Assembly: GCA_903813345.2 (NCBI GenBank)
Contig: CAIIXF020000011.1
Span: forward strand, 31,676,166 to 31,740,165
DNA: 64,000 nucleotides
DNA from: Owenia fusiformis
Lineage: Eukaryota; Annelida; Polychaeta; Sabellida; Oweniidae
Direction: 5' to 3'
Shown in pieces: positions 791 to 62,294 of the stretch (positions are counted from its first letter, which is position 1; every line of letters starts with the position of its first letter). Position numbers and translations under genes: made by a program. Below the pieces are notes generated by a model that ran no database searches, was not told the origin of the DNA, and saw only the letters and a list, made by a program, of their open reading frames with translations.

Positions 791-1843
791 TCTATCTGGT
801 CATAATTGAGAATTGACAAAATCTTGATAAATTCTTCTACATACTGAGTTGAGATGCCAACAGATGCAGCCTACGTTGTGCACTTTTATGAAATTACATG
901 TATTCACTGATTATGAAAAGGAACGTAATCAGCCTAGAAAATTGACATAAATAAAATATGTAATCGATGCTTCCACACCAAATATTTGCAATTCCTGTTG
1001 GTAATATTTATCCAGAATTTACAAGATTTTAATATTGACATATTGTAGTTGGAATGCTAATCTACCAATAATAATTATAATGATATAAGATTATCTTCAA
1101 CCAATTCTCAGGAAGATCATACACAGTCACTCTACTATACCTAACTAGAAATGCATACGATACTCTGTTTGTCTAATTGTATTGTTTAGTATATTTTTGA
1201 AAGTACCTTATTAACATCTATCACTCATCCGATAAACCATTCATAAGGAACAGACACATAAAAGCAAATAACATAATCATTACTGATAAGCCAAATGGGT
1301 TGCCACTGAACACCAAATGCAAGGTATAGTAGAGTGACAGTATATAAATGGGAAATGCAGGGACTAATGGGAATCAATTGAACAAGAAATATTCTGGGTA
1401 AAAAAAATCCCTGCGCCATCTCTCGATTGATTTGCATAATTGCTATAACATGTATTGTAAAATCATTGCCGAGGAGCCACTATATTAAACACCTTTCGTA
1501 AATCATAAGCACCTTGTACAATTGTAAATGTCCTTTGTGAATTTCAATGTTCACTGTGTCTTATTGGATATCCTGTTTGATTATCTATACTGCCAACTGT
1601 AGCTGTGTGGAGCTGTTTTCTGTTTTTGTTGTATCATTTATACTACATGGGCTTATCTTGATACATATCCAAGTATAGGATAAACTTTTTTCCTGATTCC
1701 ATTCAGATTTTTTTATATTTAAAAAGGGCAGGTACATGTATAGTTAGTGCATGTAATGAGTGTGTATATAGAATGGGCATGTAATTATTAGGACATTTAA
1801 TGAGAGTTTATAGAATTATGGCATGTAGTGTGTGCATATATAG

Positions 1844-5070: not shown

Positions 5071-5477
5071 ATGTTTATCCCATACTTGGATGTGTTACAG
5101 GTACATAAAGCAAGTTTGTGAAAACTTATATTTTCATCAGCGGGCAGATATAGCTTTACGTCCCGCTCCGAGCGGGCAGATATAGTATATCTGACCGCTA
5201 CGTCATAACCGTCACTCGCATATTTGTTCATAATTTGTAACGTTCGCGTAATGACTGTAAACGACAATGGAGAAAACACAGACAATCGGGATCTGTTTGA
5301 TAGCAAGGAGCATCCACTTAATCAATCAAAAATTCGAGAAAATAAATATGGGAATATTTGAGAGAACAGGAAAATCCACCCACGGCCAAGAAAACAAAAC
5401 TGGACATGAATATTCTAAAATATGTCCACGATTGAACAATGTGAACCAGATGACCAAGATTGGTATGGGATAAACAT
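5071..5477 (+). mobile_element. TIR-bounded block of composite palindromic repeat, copy 1
   Basis: The ends are a perfect 15-bp inverted repeat: ATGTTTATCCCATAC at 5071-5085 and its complement at 5463-5477. The interior holds a small GC-rich hairpin (5172-5205, AGCGGGCAGATATA paired with TATATCTGACCGCT). A related block lies at 53060-53357. The block is followed after one base by the 140-bp hairpin at 5479. No protein is encoded, so if mobile it is non-autonomous. Confidence 0.7.
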
Positions 5478-5478
5478 A

Positions 5479-5618
5479 TTATCCTATAGTCGGTTCAGGA
5501 TATTGGGATTATCCCTTGGCCAATATAACATATTTTCCCTCGGGACCTGCGGCCCTCGGGCAAATATATTATATTGGCCTCGGGATAATCCCAATATCCT
5601 GAACCTCATATAGGATAA
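5479..5618. repeat. 140-bp hairpin with CCCTCGGG apex (copy A)
   Basis: Two 70-nt arms are self-complementary at about 58 of 70 positions around a centre at 5548/5549. The apex reads CCCTCGGGACCTGCGGCCC. It has the same length and register as the hairpin at 53360-53499, but the stems have different sequence. Open frames translated through it are not genes. Confidence 0.8.
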
Positions 5619-6002
5619 TCTCTATATACTGTACATGTATATGTAATATATTGTATATCAAAATAAAAGGTTTCATCCATTAACTTTTCAACATATCTGA
5701 AATTCACTATGGGAGGAACATATTGATGTGGGTGGGAGACAAGACTATGGCAACTACTGCCATCTGACCAAAGTACAATCAATTATTTATTACAGAGATT
5801 AGACAAATCTTTGGGGGTTATTTCAATTATCTCTATTTGATGAATCTTGATAACCTGTAGTTGTATTCTTAGAAATCAACCTCTGTTGCTCTATCTATTA
5901 TAAGAATATGTCAGAGAAATGTTTTGCTTTTCGTTTTGACACTTTCTACATGGGATGTGTTTTGGGTGTTTGATGGTGCCTTTGATGGTACCTTAAAACA
6001 AG

Positions 6003-6838
6003 GCAAAAGGGGCTCTATGCATGATACAAAGGGTCTCTCTGCCTGATTTAAGGGATTCTCTTCCTGATGTAAATGGGCTCTCTGCCTGATAAAAAGGGTC
6101 TCCCTTCTAGATACAAATAGGCTCTTTAACTGATACAAATAGGCTCTCTGCCTGATACTAATAGGCTCTCTGCCTGATACAAATAGGCTCTCTGCCTGAT
6201 ACTAATAGGCTCTCTGCCTGATACTAATAGGCTCTCTGCCTTATACAAATAGGCTCTCTGCCTGATACCAAGGGGCTCTCTGCCTTATACAAATAGGCTC
6301 TCTGCCTGATACCAAGGGGCTCTCTGCCTGATACTAATAGGCTCTCTGCCTGATACTAATAGGCTCTCTGCCTTATACAAATAGGCTCTCTACCTGATAC
6401 TAATAGACTCTTTACCTGATATAAAGAGGCTCTCTGCCTGATACAAATAGGCTCTCTGCCTGATAAAAGGGGCTCTCTTCCTGATACAAATAGGCTCTCT
6501 GCCTGATACAAATAGACTCTTTACCTGATATAAAGAGGCTCTCTGCCTGATACCAAGGGGCTCTCTTCCTGATACAAATAGGCTCTCTGCCTGATAAAAG
6601 GGGCTCTCTTCCTGATACAAATAGGCTCTCTGCCTGATACAAATAGACTCTTTACCTGATATAAAGAGGCTCTCTGCCTGATACCAAGGGGCTCTCTTCC
6701 TGATACAAATAGGCTCTCTGCCTGATACCAAGGGGCTCTTTGCCTGATACTAATAGGCTCTCTGCCTGATACAAATGGAGGCTCTCTTCCTGATACAAAA
6801 GCCTCTGTGCCTGGAACAAAGGGTCTCTCTGTGACTTT
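6003..6838. repeat. Minisatellite, 21-22-bp unit, about 38 copies
   Basis: The unit is AGGCTCTCTGCCTGATACAA plus AT, with variants TACTAAT, TACCAAGG and TAAAAGG. Some units are grouped into a higher-order block: the variant AGACTCTTTACCTGATATAA recurs near 6405, 6514 and 6645. All minus-strand frames stay open for long stretches only because the unit lacks stops. A stray unit lies near 6890. Confidence 0.95.
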
Positions 6839-9479: not shown

Positions 9480-9652
9480 CAGGCCCGTAGCCAGGATTTG
9501 CCAAGGGGGGTTCATATTTCAAAAAATTCCAGGGGGGGTTCACAAAAGTGCTCAAAATGGTGAAAACTGCATGATTTTGAAAGAATTTTGGCCAGGGGGG
9601 GGGGGGGTTCGCCCGAACCCTGCGAACCCCCCCCCCCCTGGCTACGGGCCTG
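9480..9652 (+). mobile_element. CAGGCCC-ended MITE, copy 2
   Basis: The 173-bp element has terminal inverted repeats CAGGCCCGTAGCCAGG and CCTGGCTACGGGCCTG. It is flanked by an exact 5-bp duplication TAGCC (9475-9479 and 9653-9657). A run of G faces a run of C near the right end, so part of it could fold into a very stable hairpin. Terminal CAG suits a hAT-like origin, but the 5-bp duplication is shorter than the usual 8 bp, so the superfamily is left open. Confidence 0.9.
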
Positions 9653-9866
9653 TAGCCTATATCCATCAGAATATATGTTCAGAAAGTCATGACATTGCAT
9701 TTTTTGCCTGTATAATTAGGTAAGGTTACAGTTTTGCTTGATGATAGAGATTCTGAAATGTGACTCTATTAAATGGTTCATTACTCAAAAAATTAGAGAA
9801 GCGTAACTATTATATAACTACAGTTATTCTGAAATATTTGTAAAATTCATAGAAAATACTTAGAGG

Positions 9867-10176
9867 TTATGTCACTATGACGTGAAATATGCCTGAGTTC
9901 TCCCAATATAGGCCGACCTTGGGAGGCTCTATATTTGGGCAAGAACGAAGGCATATTTCACGTCATAGTGACATAACTGATGTATTACATGCCTTTGTTC
10001 CCATGGTTACTTTGTATCAATGACGTGACGTCATGATATTATCATGGTTATTAAAGAAATCTAATATCAAAACGAGGTAAGCGGGCTATATCGGGGTAAT
10101 CGGGCAATATCGGTGGATATAGCTCGCTAACTTTCCCATTGACTTCCATACAAATGCTTCGCTAGGTATGTAATAC
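9867..10176 (-). mobile_element. Composite palindromic repeat, reversed relative (hairpin plus TIR block)
   Basis: A 110-bp hairpin (9867-9976; arms GTTATGTCACTATGACGTGA and complement) is followed within about five bases by a block bounded by GTATTACAT (9982-9990) and ATGTAATAC (10168-10176). That block contains a GC-rich hairpin, AGCGGGCTATATC with GATATAGCTCGCT, at 10080-10130. The order is that of the repeats at 5071-5618 and 53060-53499 read in reverse, though the end sequences differ. Confidence 0.6.
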
Positions 10177-12153
10177 AGTACAATATAGTTGAATTAAAAT
10201 GTGTCTCTGAAAGTAACCTTTGATAGAATACTAATTCCTTAATCGGAAGACATTAACAGAAAATAGATGTTATCAAGAATAACACTTTTTCAAGTGTTCA
10301 ATTCAATTTAAGATAAAAGAACTACTAGTACGTGTCAAATAGATTATCTTTGGATCTATATTTTACACAATGTAGGCGTTTAATGGCAGTTTCCTAATGA
10401 CGACATCGAGCCTAAAAGATTCATCACATAATAATGATATCAACAGAGATTTTGTGTTAAAAATAGTCCAATAGTGCTCTCTTGTGTATTGAAGCAATTC
10501 AACTGGTTGCTTCTCTTACGAGAGAATTTCAAATTACTTCAAATTTAATCGAAATGTTTGTGCTTTCTCAACTGAGATTTTAGAATATACATGTATGTTA
10601 AAACAATTTTAGGCAATTTTAATTGGAATTTCACCTTTTGTTCAGAAAAGATATGATGTTTGAGATGAGAAAAAATGCTTATTATATTTTCATTTCAAAT
10701 ATTATTAATTTCAATTCAATCATTATCAAAAAAAAGCTTTTTCAGTGAAGTCACAGAATTGATATGTAATATATTTGAAATTACTAAACTTGCCTTGAAC
10801 TGTCTTGTTTCAAACAAATTTAAGGTCATTTGTGCTACTAACATGATTTTCAAAACATACTGTCTCATAATTCAATGGAAGTATCTCACTGTTAAACTCC
10901 TTTTGATTATAGGGTGTAGGGACTTTGCAATCTCATCCAAACTAATCAATACTGCCTGGTGAGATTTTAACAGTTTGGGACGGTTAATAATGTAAGAAGG
11001 GGGAAGTGTTGCATGTCTCCACATTCTTGTCTAATTGGTACAAAGATCAATGTATGTTATATATTAATAGGAAATTTGTTGATTTAATTGAGATTTATTT
11101 GACATTTTTGCCTATCAATTTGCTTACCCGGCAAGATTCTGATTAATTCTCTCGCTATTTTCGTAGTTTTTGCCAAAGGTTAATGAATCAAATTGGATTA
11201 AGTGGTGATTTATCAAATGGATATCATGTGCTAATTATGGGCCCTGAATATTATGTGAAGGTGTCTGGTATATAATGGTGTCATTGATCAACTTATATAT
11301 GAGCTTGGAATTAGACAGAAAAAGGGGCCACAAAGTAAAGATATGTAGTTGATTAAGCAGTCCATTATAAATTGACAAGAAATTCACCAGTGACCTTATC
11401 ACCTCATTTTTGAAAAATAAAAATATTTGGGTAACATTCCAAAAAATTAATTTACACGAATACAAGGATGTTAAAGGATTCATAAATAAATATTCTGAGT
11501 TGCTCTTTCAGAAAATGAATTCTCTGATGCTAGTCTGTTTTGTATATTTCCCTTCAAGTCCTAATGCCCTAATGGTATTATTACACCATATGTAACATAA
11601 AGTTCAATAATCTAATATAATACAGGGACTTTACCACTATTGTTCAATTAATTATATCATCTTGACAATTTCATTGGATTTAGCATGTAAGTTTAGAACA
11701 CTTCATTACCAGGGTTCAAACCTACCTGTCATGTCTCAGATTTGTTTCCTGAAATTCTGAATGAAACAGCTGCCATTGATATAAGAAATTACAGTGCTGA
11801 AATAAAATATAAATATGTTATGAACTGGTTCTACTTATTTCTACTATTGTTCATTTTTTGAATCGTCATCTCTGATCCAACATGACATTTCTTCATGGGT
11901 AATGCTTCTCTTGGTCAATGTTATAATTGCATAAGACAATGTCTGTAGAGTCAGACAGTGGTAAATGATGAATTTAATCATAAGTTGATTATCAGTGGAT
12001 TTGTAAGGCTGACATGATCATATAATTAAATCTACTGTACATTTTGAAGCAAGGGCCAAGGTCAGTTAGTCTGGCTCCAAACCCCTGTCCCCCCACAACT
12101 TGGCTGCATTCCTTCTCACACAGATCGTGAGGTTTGAAGTGGGGGGTCACAAG

Positions 12154-13153
12154 CACGGGGTACCATCGAATAATTTTGGCAACGTACCAGAGAACGACAT
12201 TTTACTAAGAAATGGCAATAATTTAGCACAATATATTTTTTAACTAGAGTTCTATTTTGATTTTGACAAAAGTAAGTATTCCATGCAATAACTATTTCAT
12301 TCATGAGTTTGTAGGAATTCTGTTGGAACCCAGTTCTGATCAAGTACGAAGTTATTGAAATCGGCGCAGACAGACTTTACTCCGAAAGATGGTTTTTCGA
12401 TTATAACTTTTCACAACATTTAAGTATAGACTTTTGAAAAAAGTACAGAATAGTCCTTATACTTTTGAATAATTCTGTTATTTCTGATTCACACGACTCT
12501 GATTTGTTTAATTAAAAAAAAGTTTTAAAAATATTACTTAGGAACGTAACCGGAGCTGGGAACGTAACCGGAGCAGATCAGTTGAATTATTTAATCAAAA
12601 AAATTAAAATATATGATTTAAAGCACATATACTAATTTAAAAACATACGGGAGTGTTCGAATGCGTATTTATTAATACGTATGCTTTAAATCATATATTT
12701 TATTTTTTTAAATTATATAATTCAACTGATCTGCTCCGGTTACGTTCCCAGCTCCGGTTACGTTCCTAAGTAATATTTTTAAAACTTTTTTTTAATTAAA
12801 CAAATCAGAGTCGTGTGAATCAGAAATAACATAATTATTCAAAAGTATAAGGACTATTCTGTACTTTTTTCAAAAGTCTATACTTAAATGTTGTGAAAAG
12901 TTATAATCGAAAAACCATCTTTCGGAGTAAAGTCCGACTGCGCCGATTTCAATAACTTCGTACTTGATCAGAACTGGGTTCCAACAGAATTCCTACAAAC
13001 TCATGAATGAAATAGCCATTGCATGGAATACTTACTTTTGTCAAAATCAAAGTAGAACTCTAGTTAAAAAATATATTGTGCTAAATTATTGCCATTTCTT
13101 AGTAAAATGTCGTTCTCCGGTACGTTGCCAAAATTATTCGATGGTACCCCGTG
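12154..13153. mobile_element. 1000-bp foldback transposon with 472-bp inverted arms
   Basis: Left arm 12154-12625 and right arm 12682-13153 are near-perfect inverted copies separated by a 56-bp spacer. The ends read CACGGGGTACCATCG and its complement. An exact 5-bp duplication ACAAG flanks the element (12149-12153, 13154-13158). Each arm carries two copies of GGAACGTAACCGGAGC (12541 and 12559; complements at 12733 and 12751). Mirror-image 60-70-codon open frames in the arms are a consequence of the symmetry. No transposase is encoded. CAC ends plus a 5-bp duplication resemble the Transib/RAG type, which is inference only. Confidence 0.9.
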
Positions 13154-14028
13154 ACAAGGGCTTGTAGACAGATGAGACATTTTTGACCACATCAAAATAT
13201 TGACCTGGTTCCTAGCACCATAAAAGACGATGCTATGAGGTTAAATAGGTATAAGATATGTTTTCAGGATAATGTTACCAGCCATGTTTGCAATGTATTT
13301 CTATTATTCATTTCTCAAGCGTTTCTGATAACTTTAATATCTGATGTTTGAAAATCTGTAGAATGAACCTTGTATAAATTATTCTATTATCTTAAAATAA
13401 TCATGGTTATTCTTTTACTCAATCTTTGTATTAATACATGAGCCTTTGATTTTTAATAGTAATCTAATCCTTCTCAGTGATCTATCTATCTATCATTGAT
13501 GTAACAAGGCAATTCACCAAGCTGAAAATTACCGTTGATATTTTATGACAATTACATTGAAAATCTGTTAGCACCCAATTGAGAGTTTATAGAATCATGA
13601 AAATTAAAATTTTTGATCAGTTCGTTACATTTGAGGCAAAATTTTGTTCTTAGTATAAAAATGATCCTTGAGGAAACCCTACTTTATTGGCCATTCTGAG
13701 GATATGGCCTTAATAAGTGTCACAAGCCTCTCCTTTTGATTCCCAAATGTTTGGAGACTAAGACACTCAAGGTCCTCCTCTATATCAATTACCAGTCCCA
13801 TGTTGCATTGTGGGATGCTTGAACCTGTTGTGTTTTATCTGAAATATGAAAAAGGAAAATTGACTCTCATTGTGATAAATGAAAATACAATATAATCTAA
13901 CAGTTTTTATATTCATTTTGATTATGAACAAAATTAAAAGCTTAGCTCCATCTTGGGTACTTCTGGGTGCTTGACCATAATTGGTTGACCCTTGTTGCTT
14001 GACCCCCCCATTGCTTTATGCATTCTAG

Positions 14029-46257
<32,229 letters not shown>

Positions 46258-52771: not shown

Positions 52772-61838
<9,067 letters not shown>

Positions 61839-62132
61839 TGTCTCATGGTTATGTTATTGAATATAGGGGGGGGGGGGCTGTGAGATGAGCTTCATGCTAA
61901 TATGTTGGGGGTTGGAAGGAGATTGATGTTTGAGAAACAATCTTACAAAGGTCCAGTGGAAAAACTTAAAGATGCCATTTCTTTGTTCTGGGCTATACTG
62001 ATCAAAAACCATTAATAAATAATAAAATATTGTCTTAACTTTTTATATACAATTCTCATCCATTTACAATGCTTCAAGTTTTATACGATCCTTGGATTGT
62101 GAACTCCCCATGAAACGTATTTTGATACATGA

Positions 62133-62294
62133 CAGGCCCGTAGCCAGGATTTGCCAAGGGGGGGTTCAGTTTTCAAAAATTTCCAGAGGGCCCAAATATG
62201 GCTAAAATGACTTGAGAAGTGCTCAAAATGGTGAAAAACTGCATGATTTTGAAAGAATTTTTGGCCCTGCAAACCCCCCCTGGCTACGGGCCTG
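62133..62294 (+). mobile_element. CAGGCCC-ended MITE, copy 3
   Basis: 162 bp, ends CAGGCCCGTAGCCAGG and CCTGGCTACGGGCCTG, flanked by an exact 5-bp duplication CATGA (62128-62132 and 62295-62299). Interior as in copy 2 but with shorter G and C runs. Confidence 0.9.

Follow-up and report, generated by a model that had tools for sequence, protein, structure and literature searches.

The window analysed here, a 64-kb stretch of DNA, contains several copies of a small element that is probably a non-autonomous rolling-circle transposon of the Helitron2/Helentron (HINE-like) kind, ~320–570 bp long, in which a long hairpin would act as a terminator at the level of DNA. Four copies (c1–c4) were recovered, and statements about the family rest on five places within the 64-kb window, the fifth being a lone left end. 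We read the plan of the element as a short left inverted repeat, a non-coding body that contains an AGCGGG hairpin (the inner hairpin), a subterminal right inverted repeat, the long hairpin, and a short conserved 3′ tail; the order of these parts is identical in all three near-complete copies (c1, c2, and c4). Between copies, the two arms of the hairpin stem have changed together.

The first copy (c1; 5071–5636, forward strand) begins with the left repeat ATGTTTATCCCATACTT (5071–5087) and ends, after its inner hairpin and its 142-nt hairpin, in the conserved tail. Its 13-bp inverted repeat can be followed over 15 positions, as 5071–5085 is complementary to 5463–5477 at 15/15, the latter being the subterminal right repeat GTATGGGATAAACAT (inverted-repeat listing). 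The inner hairpin (5139–5200) consists of two nested AGCGGG units by both repeat listing and folding. The 142-nt hairpin (5478–5619) has 59/59 Watson-Crick pairs in its own fold and is followed by the tail ATAATCTCTATATACT (5615–5636), common to the copies, whose first bases are paired within the hairpin base. The second copy (c2; 53063–53516, forward strand) has this plan in common with c1, i.e., a left repeat TTATCCCATACTT (53063–53075; direct reading and motif listing), an inner AGCGGG hairpin (53125–53152; inverted-repeat listing and folding), a right repeat AAGTATAGGATAA (53342–53354) matching the left one at 12/13 positions, a 142-nt hairpin (53359–53500; folding), and the common tail ATAATCTCTATATATT (53496–53516; alignment). 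Aligned over their whole length, c1 and c2 score 151 (maximum of 200 shuffles, 73), and the stretch ATAATCTCTATATA just past the hairpin is common to both in the alignment and belongs to the unit. A preliminary description of this DNA had proposed a shared plan with inverted ends for these two loci, and reading, inverted-repeat listing, folding, and alignment all bear it out; the tail did not figure in that description. Two of its details need correction: a hairpin of exactly 140 bp is not a constant of the family (142, 142, 112, and 116 nt were taken for folding in c1, c2, c4, and c3, respectively), and the gap between the right repeat and the hairpin, given there as 1–3 bases, is 0 bp in c1, ~4–5 bp in c2, and 3 bp in c4.

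Further members were found within the window. An nhmmer profile built from the c1 and c2 hairpins detected c3 (40675–40811, minus strand; E = 3.8e-13, window), which was then read and folded. It is a decayed fragment comprising a degenerate hairpin with a shortened apex and the tail ATAACCCCTTTGTATT; the right-arm motif AACCTC and the tail are common to it and c1/c2, and no end repeats were found in its surroundings. A covariance model of c1, c2, and c3, of which c3 is thus a part by construction, yielded one new place (c4; 9845–9977, minus strand) at E = 6.2e-11, a flattering value, since high scores under such a model go to any well-paired hairpin. In the nhmmer profile search c4 reached only E = 1.8, and its whole-length alignments to c1 and c2 scored 58 and 60, below the respective shuffle maxima of 64 and 71. 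The membership of c4 therefore rests on its plan, repeat, tail, and AGCGGG motif.

These parts are arranged in c4 (9855–10178, minus strand) as they are in c1 and c2, with other stem letters. The left repeat CTGTATTACATACC (10165–10178) includes TGTATTACATACC, which matches the right repeat at 12/13 positions, and an AGCGGG-type hairpin (10079–10127; folding) lies between the two repeats. The subterminal right repeat GGCATGTAATACAT (9980–9993) is 3 bp from the long hairpin, so that the hairpin is preceded at this distance by GGCATGTAATACA, with TGTATTACATACC as its inverted partner, and the block measures ~200 bp. The hairpin itself (112 nt; 9866–9977) folds with 49 pairs, none of them G-T, and its arms of 36 nt are 94% complementary. 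The tail ATAACCTCTAAGTATT (9855–9870) agrees with that of c2 at 13/16 positions; on both strands of the window this score occurs at five places, and a higher one only at two, c1 and c2. A scan of the whole window for compact hairpins returned four with a score of at least 50, c3 being too decayed to be among them. In the eight hairpin-orientation tests, an inverted partner beside the hairpin, on the side opposite the tail, was found at 13/13 for c1, 12/13 for c2, and 12/13 for c4; the remaining five tests gave just 10–11 of 13.

A lone left end (1663–1685, minus strand) is identical to that of c1 at 21/23 positions. Similarity among the four left ends starts at about TTTATCC / TTATCC / TGTATT, and the exact ends given here are putative. 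The motif AGCGGG occurs five times in the window with both strands counted (three in c1, one each in c2 and c4), and the inner hairpin that bears it sits ~40–50 nt inside the left end.

The co-variation of the arms was assessed on the 58 stem pairs with letters in both c1 and c2, using the c1 fold as the structure and a fixed alignment (A3). The apex sequence is common to c1 and c2 and their stems differ, as the preliminary description had it; 19 left-arm and 16 right-arm letters are different. In 14 pairs both partners changed (hypergeometric p = 1.1e-7), and all but one of these, 13 pairs, are Watson-Crick in c1 and in c2. Ten of these 13 fall in columns 6, 8, 11, 19–21, 26, 27, 31, and 32, i.e., all ten columns first picked out by hand, shifted by one; three further ones are in the inner stem. 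The excess also held against a shuffled null: the three-copy alignment contains 13 double-changed pairs (shuffle mean 5.0), a number reached in 0/500 shuffles. Sliding the partner column by 1–3 reduced the double changes in this alignment to 0–3, a control which, like the mismatch counts, is favourable to c1 because the structure was derived from it. Against co-variation, no excess of double changes was seen between c2 and c3 (3/45 pairs, p = 0.64), and between c1 and the degenerate c3 the p-value was only 0.013.

The hairpins of c1, c2, and c4 are 13.6, 10.8, and 14.2 SD, respectively, below dinucleotide shuffles in folding energy (DNA parameters), whereas that of c3 is a mere 3.4 SD below, and 15 of its 45 lettered pairs are mismatched on the c1 structure. 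Independent decay of the arms, which the preliminary description had named as evidence against its reading, is thus seen in part, in c3, while the other three copies remain strongly folded. Within the stem, the unpaired columns 12–14 and 39–40 are mismatched at 5/5 positions in c1 (by construction), 5/5 in c2, and 4/5 in c3; three of the four inner interruptions pair in c2, one of them as G-T. The right-arm AACCTC is constant in 3/3 copies (c1, c2, and c3) and its left partner varies.

Pairs of the G-T type are rare, with 0/59 in c1, 1/58 in c2, and 0/49 in c4, compared with 3/45 in the decayed c3. Transversions account for 7 of the 13 double changes, a mix similar to that of unpaired columns (12/19), and for 6/13 double changes G-U could be an intermediate or take part. 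By comparison, the same holds in rRNA hairpins for 61.0% of the instantaneous and 78.5% of the two-step compensatory changes, according to the available part of one study (PMC8794818). With just 13 changes, this comparison tilts only slightly against evolution as RNA. That the copies are transcribed as a structured RNA, or as a hairpin of microRNA type, and selected as RNA is extremely improbable. The strong fold would suit this account, and sub-threshold Rfam microRNA matches exist, e.g., MIR2630 at 58.8 bits in a scan of the c1 region; however, MIR2630 requires 144 bits, the two strands score alike (58.8 and 58.3), which is expected of a palindrome, and the stem sequence differs among copies in addition to the scarcity of G-U pairs. 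At the gathering score, Rfam had 0 matches in the whole window, and an RNA gene was rejected on these grounds.

The preliminary description had left two causes for the matched arms, selection on a folded form or copying from arm to arm. We favour selection, acting on a DNA hairpin located at a mobile element's end, because the parts come in the order known from Helitron2/HINE ends, c4 combines the shared plan with a stem of its own, and much of the pairing in c3 is gone. It seems to us unlikely that the arms of the same element owe their match mainly to copying, whether by template switching or by hairpin-primed repair, in a single-stranded or replicating state, though this account has points in its favour. 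Stems can be both made and mended by template switching, which can also produce compensatory changes several bases long (PMC8794818, in the part available), and the double changes have a share of transversions like that of the unpaired columns and show few G-T intermediates. Yet few G-T pairs are also predicted by selection at the DNA level, and the scarcity of G-T pairs and the 7/13 transversions fit a DNA-level hairpin under selection or arm copying alike. Wholesale copying would, moreover, erase the unpaired interruptions, which persist in register, and AACCTC on the right arm, too, is constant with a variable left partner. The interruptions that stay mismatched at columns 12–14 and 39–40, together with the decay of c3, make us lean to selection, and the loss of pairing in c3 makes steady correction in place unlikely. 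Distinctly unlikely, to our mind, is a scenario in which the rolling-circle lineage itself renews its terminator by copying one arm onto the other in the single-stranded state; each new long stem would then be the outcome of one event, with apex, base, and tail kept fixed, and c1, c2, and c4 would be three products of this turnover.

A different assembly, in which a cut-and-paste MITE (the block and its terminal inverted repeats) was joined by chance to a separate palindrome, is very improbable. The block does have inverted ends of 13–15 bp, and TACATGT was noted by eye on both sides of c1, the only copy so flanked. But the hairpin and tail lie within 0–5 bp of the right repeat, and outside it, in 3/3 near-complete copies, so the inverted repeats are not outermost, and no consistent target duplication was seen at the repeats. 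The flanks of c2 showed no duplication like the TACATGT of c1, and TACATGT was dropped as a target duplication on this account; the MITE itself was rejected.

Under the rolling-circle reading, the element would work like a Helitron2 and is a candidate long-hairpin variant of that group. In Helitron2 elements, inverted repeats of 8–15 bp are asymmetric, the 3′ one being subterminal and immediately upstream of a 3′ hairpin (Bao and Jurka 2013, PMC3627910, in the part available). Both features recur here, as short inverted repeats (15/15, 12/13, and 12/13 in c1, c2, and c4) and as a right repeat lying 0–5 bp upstream of the hairpin in these three copies. The same source, which defined the group, as far as available, places the 3′ repeat ~20–30 bp from the end, and it describes compensatory changes keeping the inverted repeats and the 5′ hairpin in two related Helitron2 elements. 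A Helitron2 is further expected to have a 5′ end starting in T and to insert next to a T tract with no duplication of the target. Here, by contrast, the right repeat is more than 112–142 nt from the 3′ end, owing to the hairpin, which alone measures 142, 142, and 112 nt in c1, c2, and c4. A clear 5′ hairpin involving the left repeat, as expected of Helitron2, was likewise not seen in these copies, which have the inner AGCGGG hairpin instead; the folds of the four left ends are weak (−1.3 to −2.1 kcal/mol). Both points count against the Helitron2-like reading, and we speak of a variant and not of a filed member because the distance of the right repeat falls outside the published range (20–30 bp for Helitron2, 38–60 bp for HINEs).

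In mites, flies, and oyster, the non-autonomous Helentron derivatives known as HINEs carry short repeats in subterminal position, the right one being followed by a palindrome (PMC4067079 and PMC7492417, both in part). The likeness to Helentron-derived HINE/DINE-1 elements, judged from the available text of PMC4067079, lies in the subterminal inverted repeats of 12–15 bp, the non-coding body, and a palindrome that follows the right repeat close to the 3′ end. In mite HINEs, however, that text gives palindromes of 5–10 bp (112–142 nt here) and a right repeat 38–60 bp from the end; it also reports a T-rich target shown by empty sites. Cg_HINE of the Pacific oyster resembles the present copies in its short inverted repeats, the palindrome after the right one, and its invertebrate genome, and differs in having a 60-bp right flank module and central tandem repeats (available part of PMC7492417). 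No central tandem array was seen in c1, c2, or c4; the repeats listed there are confined to the nested AGCGGG units in c1 and a row of 2 copies in c4. Some fungal Helitron2-like elements bear hairpins at both ends (PMC5148889, in part).

For Helraiser, an experimentally active Helitron, the accessible text of PMC4778049 describes the 3′ hairpin as a terminator that is not absolutely required: swapping the stem while keeping the loop left ~90% activity, and changing the loop was like deleting the hairpin. The conserved apex with free, paired stems seen here is what this rule predicts, and copies of this kind offer natural evidence for a rule drawn from one Helitron experiment (stem exchangeable, loop not). 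Helraiser/Helibat is otherwise different, being of the Helitron1 type without inverted repeats and having a 19-bp palindrome and TC...CTAG ends (PMC4778049, same text). The kind of terminus is already known, and the unusually long hairpin, several times longer than the terminators described for the Helitron2/HINE group in the available parts of the cited literature, sets the present copies apart as a variant. No 3′ hairpin of 112–142 nt in this group was found in the literature searched, which included the available parts of PMC3627910, PMC4067079, PMC5148889, PMC7492417, PMC5139131, and PMC4778049; one may well be described in Repbase or the subscription literature, the former wholly and the latter mostly outside this search. 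Papers found through sequence words of the element were judged unrelated by title and abstract. Nor were compensatory changes in a long 3′ hairpin found described in these sources, as far as their available text extends. Terminators of this length provide enough paired columns to tell selection and arm copying apart in the evolution of terminal hairpins.

Movement would most likely be by a rolling circle. Acting in trans, an enzyme of the RepHel type would recognise the short repeats and displace one strand, and the long hairpin, forming in the single strand, would most likely mark the stopping point. What would be read is the apex, the base, and the pairing of the hairpin and not the letters of its stem, so that active lineages would accept changes that are restored on the opposite arm. 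A copy, once inserted, would be freed of this constraint, and its arms may decay apart. The partner expected of a Helitron2 is an autonomous element with the same ends and a RepHel transposase, and that of a Helentron-derived HINE is an autonomous Helentron with RepHel plus an endonuclease. No partner enzyme was found among the ORFs scanned against Pfam (5 of the 10 in the window with at least 130 aa).

Relatives were sought in collections that hold prokaryotes, viruses, and plasmids, where absence says little. The apex pattern matched 3 stretches in viral_contigs and 93 in genome_contigs, and these 96 loci were set aside as chance or bacterial hairpins, the best having 26/58 outer positions complementary (ungapped stem scoring) in GC-rich bacterial DNA. 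Among the stretches matched by this pattern are recurrent GC-rich palindromes, such as CCCTCGGCACTTRCGTGCCTCGGG, on contigs of the Caldimicrobium MAG EvPrim.Bin5 (L022, L039, L080, and others), to all appearance a bacterial repeat unrelated to the element described here. The tail, long left-end, and right-arm patterns each had 0 matches in viral_contigs, and the c1 hairpin had no match in phage records. The left-repeat pattern TTATCCCATACTTRG occurred at 115 loci; among the 116 sites tested in 114 of them (1 site at an end was skipped), none had an inverted partner of at least 12/13 and none was followed by a strong hairpin in the next 1.5 kb.

The window contains other repeats as well. A tandem array with a period of 22 and ~37 copies (6011–6831) lies a few hundred bases from c1. 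An interspersed repeat with G runs (AAGGGGGGTTC) is present at 1836–1988, 9480–9655, and 62125–62266, the copy at 9480–9655 having inverted ends CAGGCCCGTAGCCAGG. The G+C content of 34% and a C2-domain exon (45138–45644), whose best match among solved structures is synaptotagmin-7, make the window look like animal DNA. Upstream of this exon lie long ORFs (13989–32457), the longest of which spans 18186–26840; three of the others, scanned against Pfam, had no match. A near-perfect palindrome of 1 kb (12154–13153), with 496-nt arms that are 96% complementary and an 8-nt spacer, has the direct repeat ACAAG immediately on either side (12149–12153 and 13154–13158, by eye), and its ends start with CACGGGGTACC. 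It has the look of a foldback transposon that duplicated 5 bp of its target, and CAC ends with 5-bp duplications are reminiscent of Transib/RAG-like elements.
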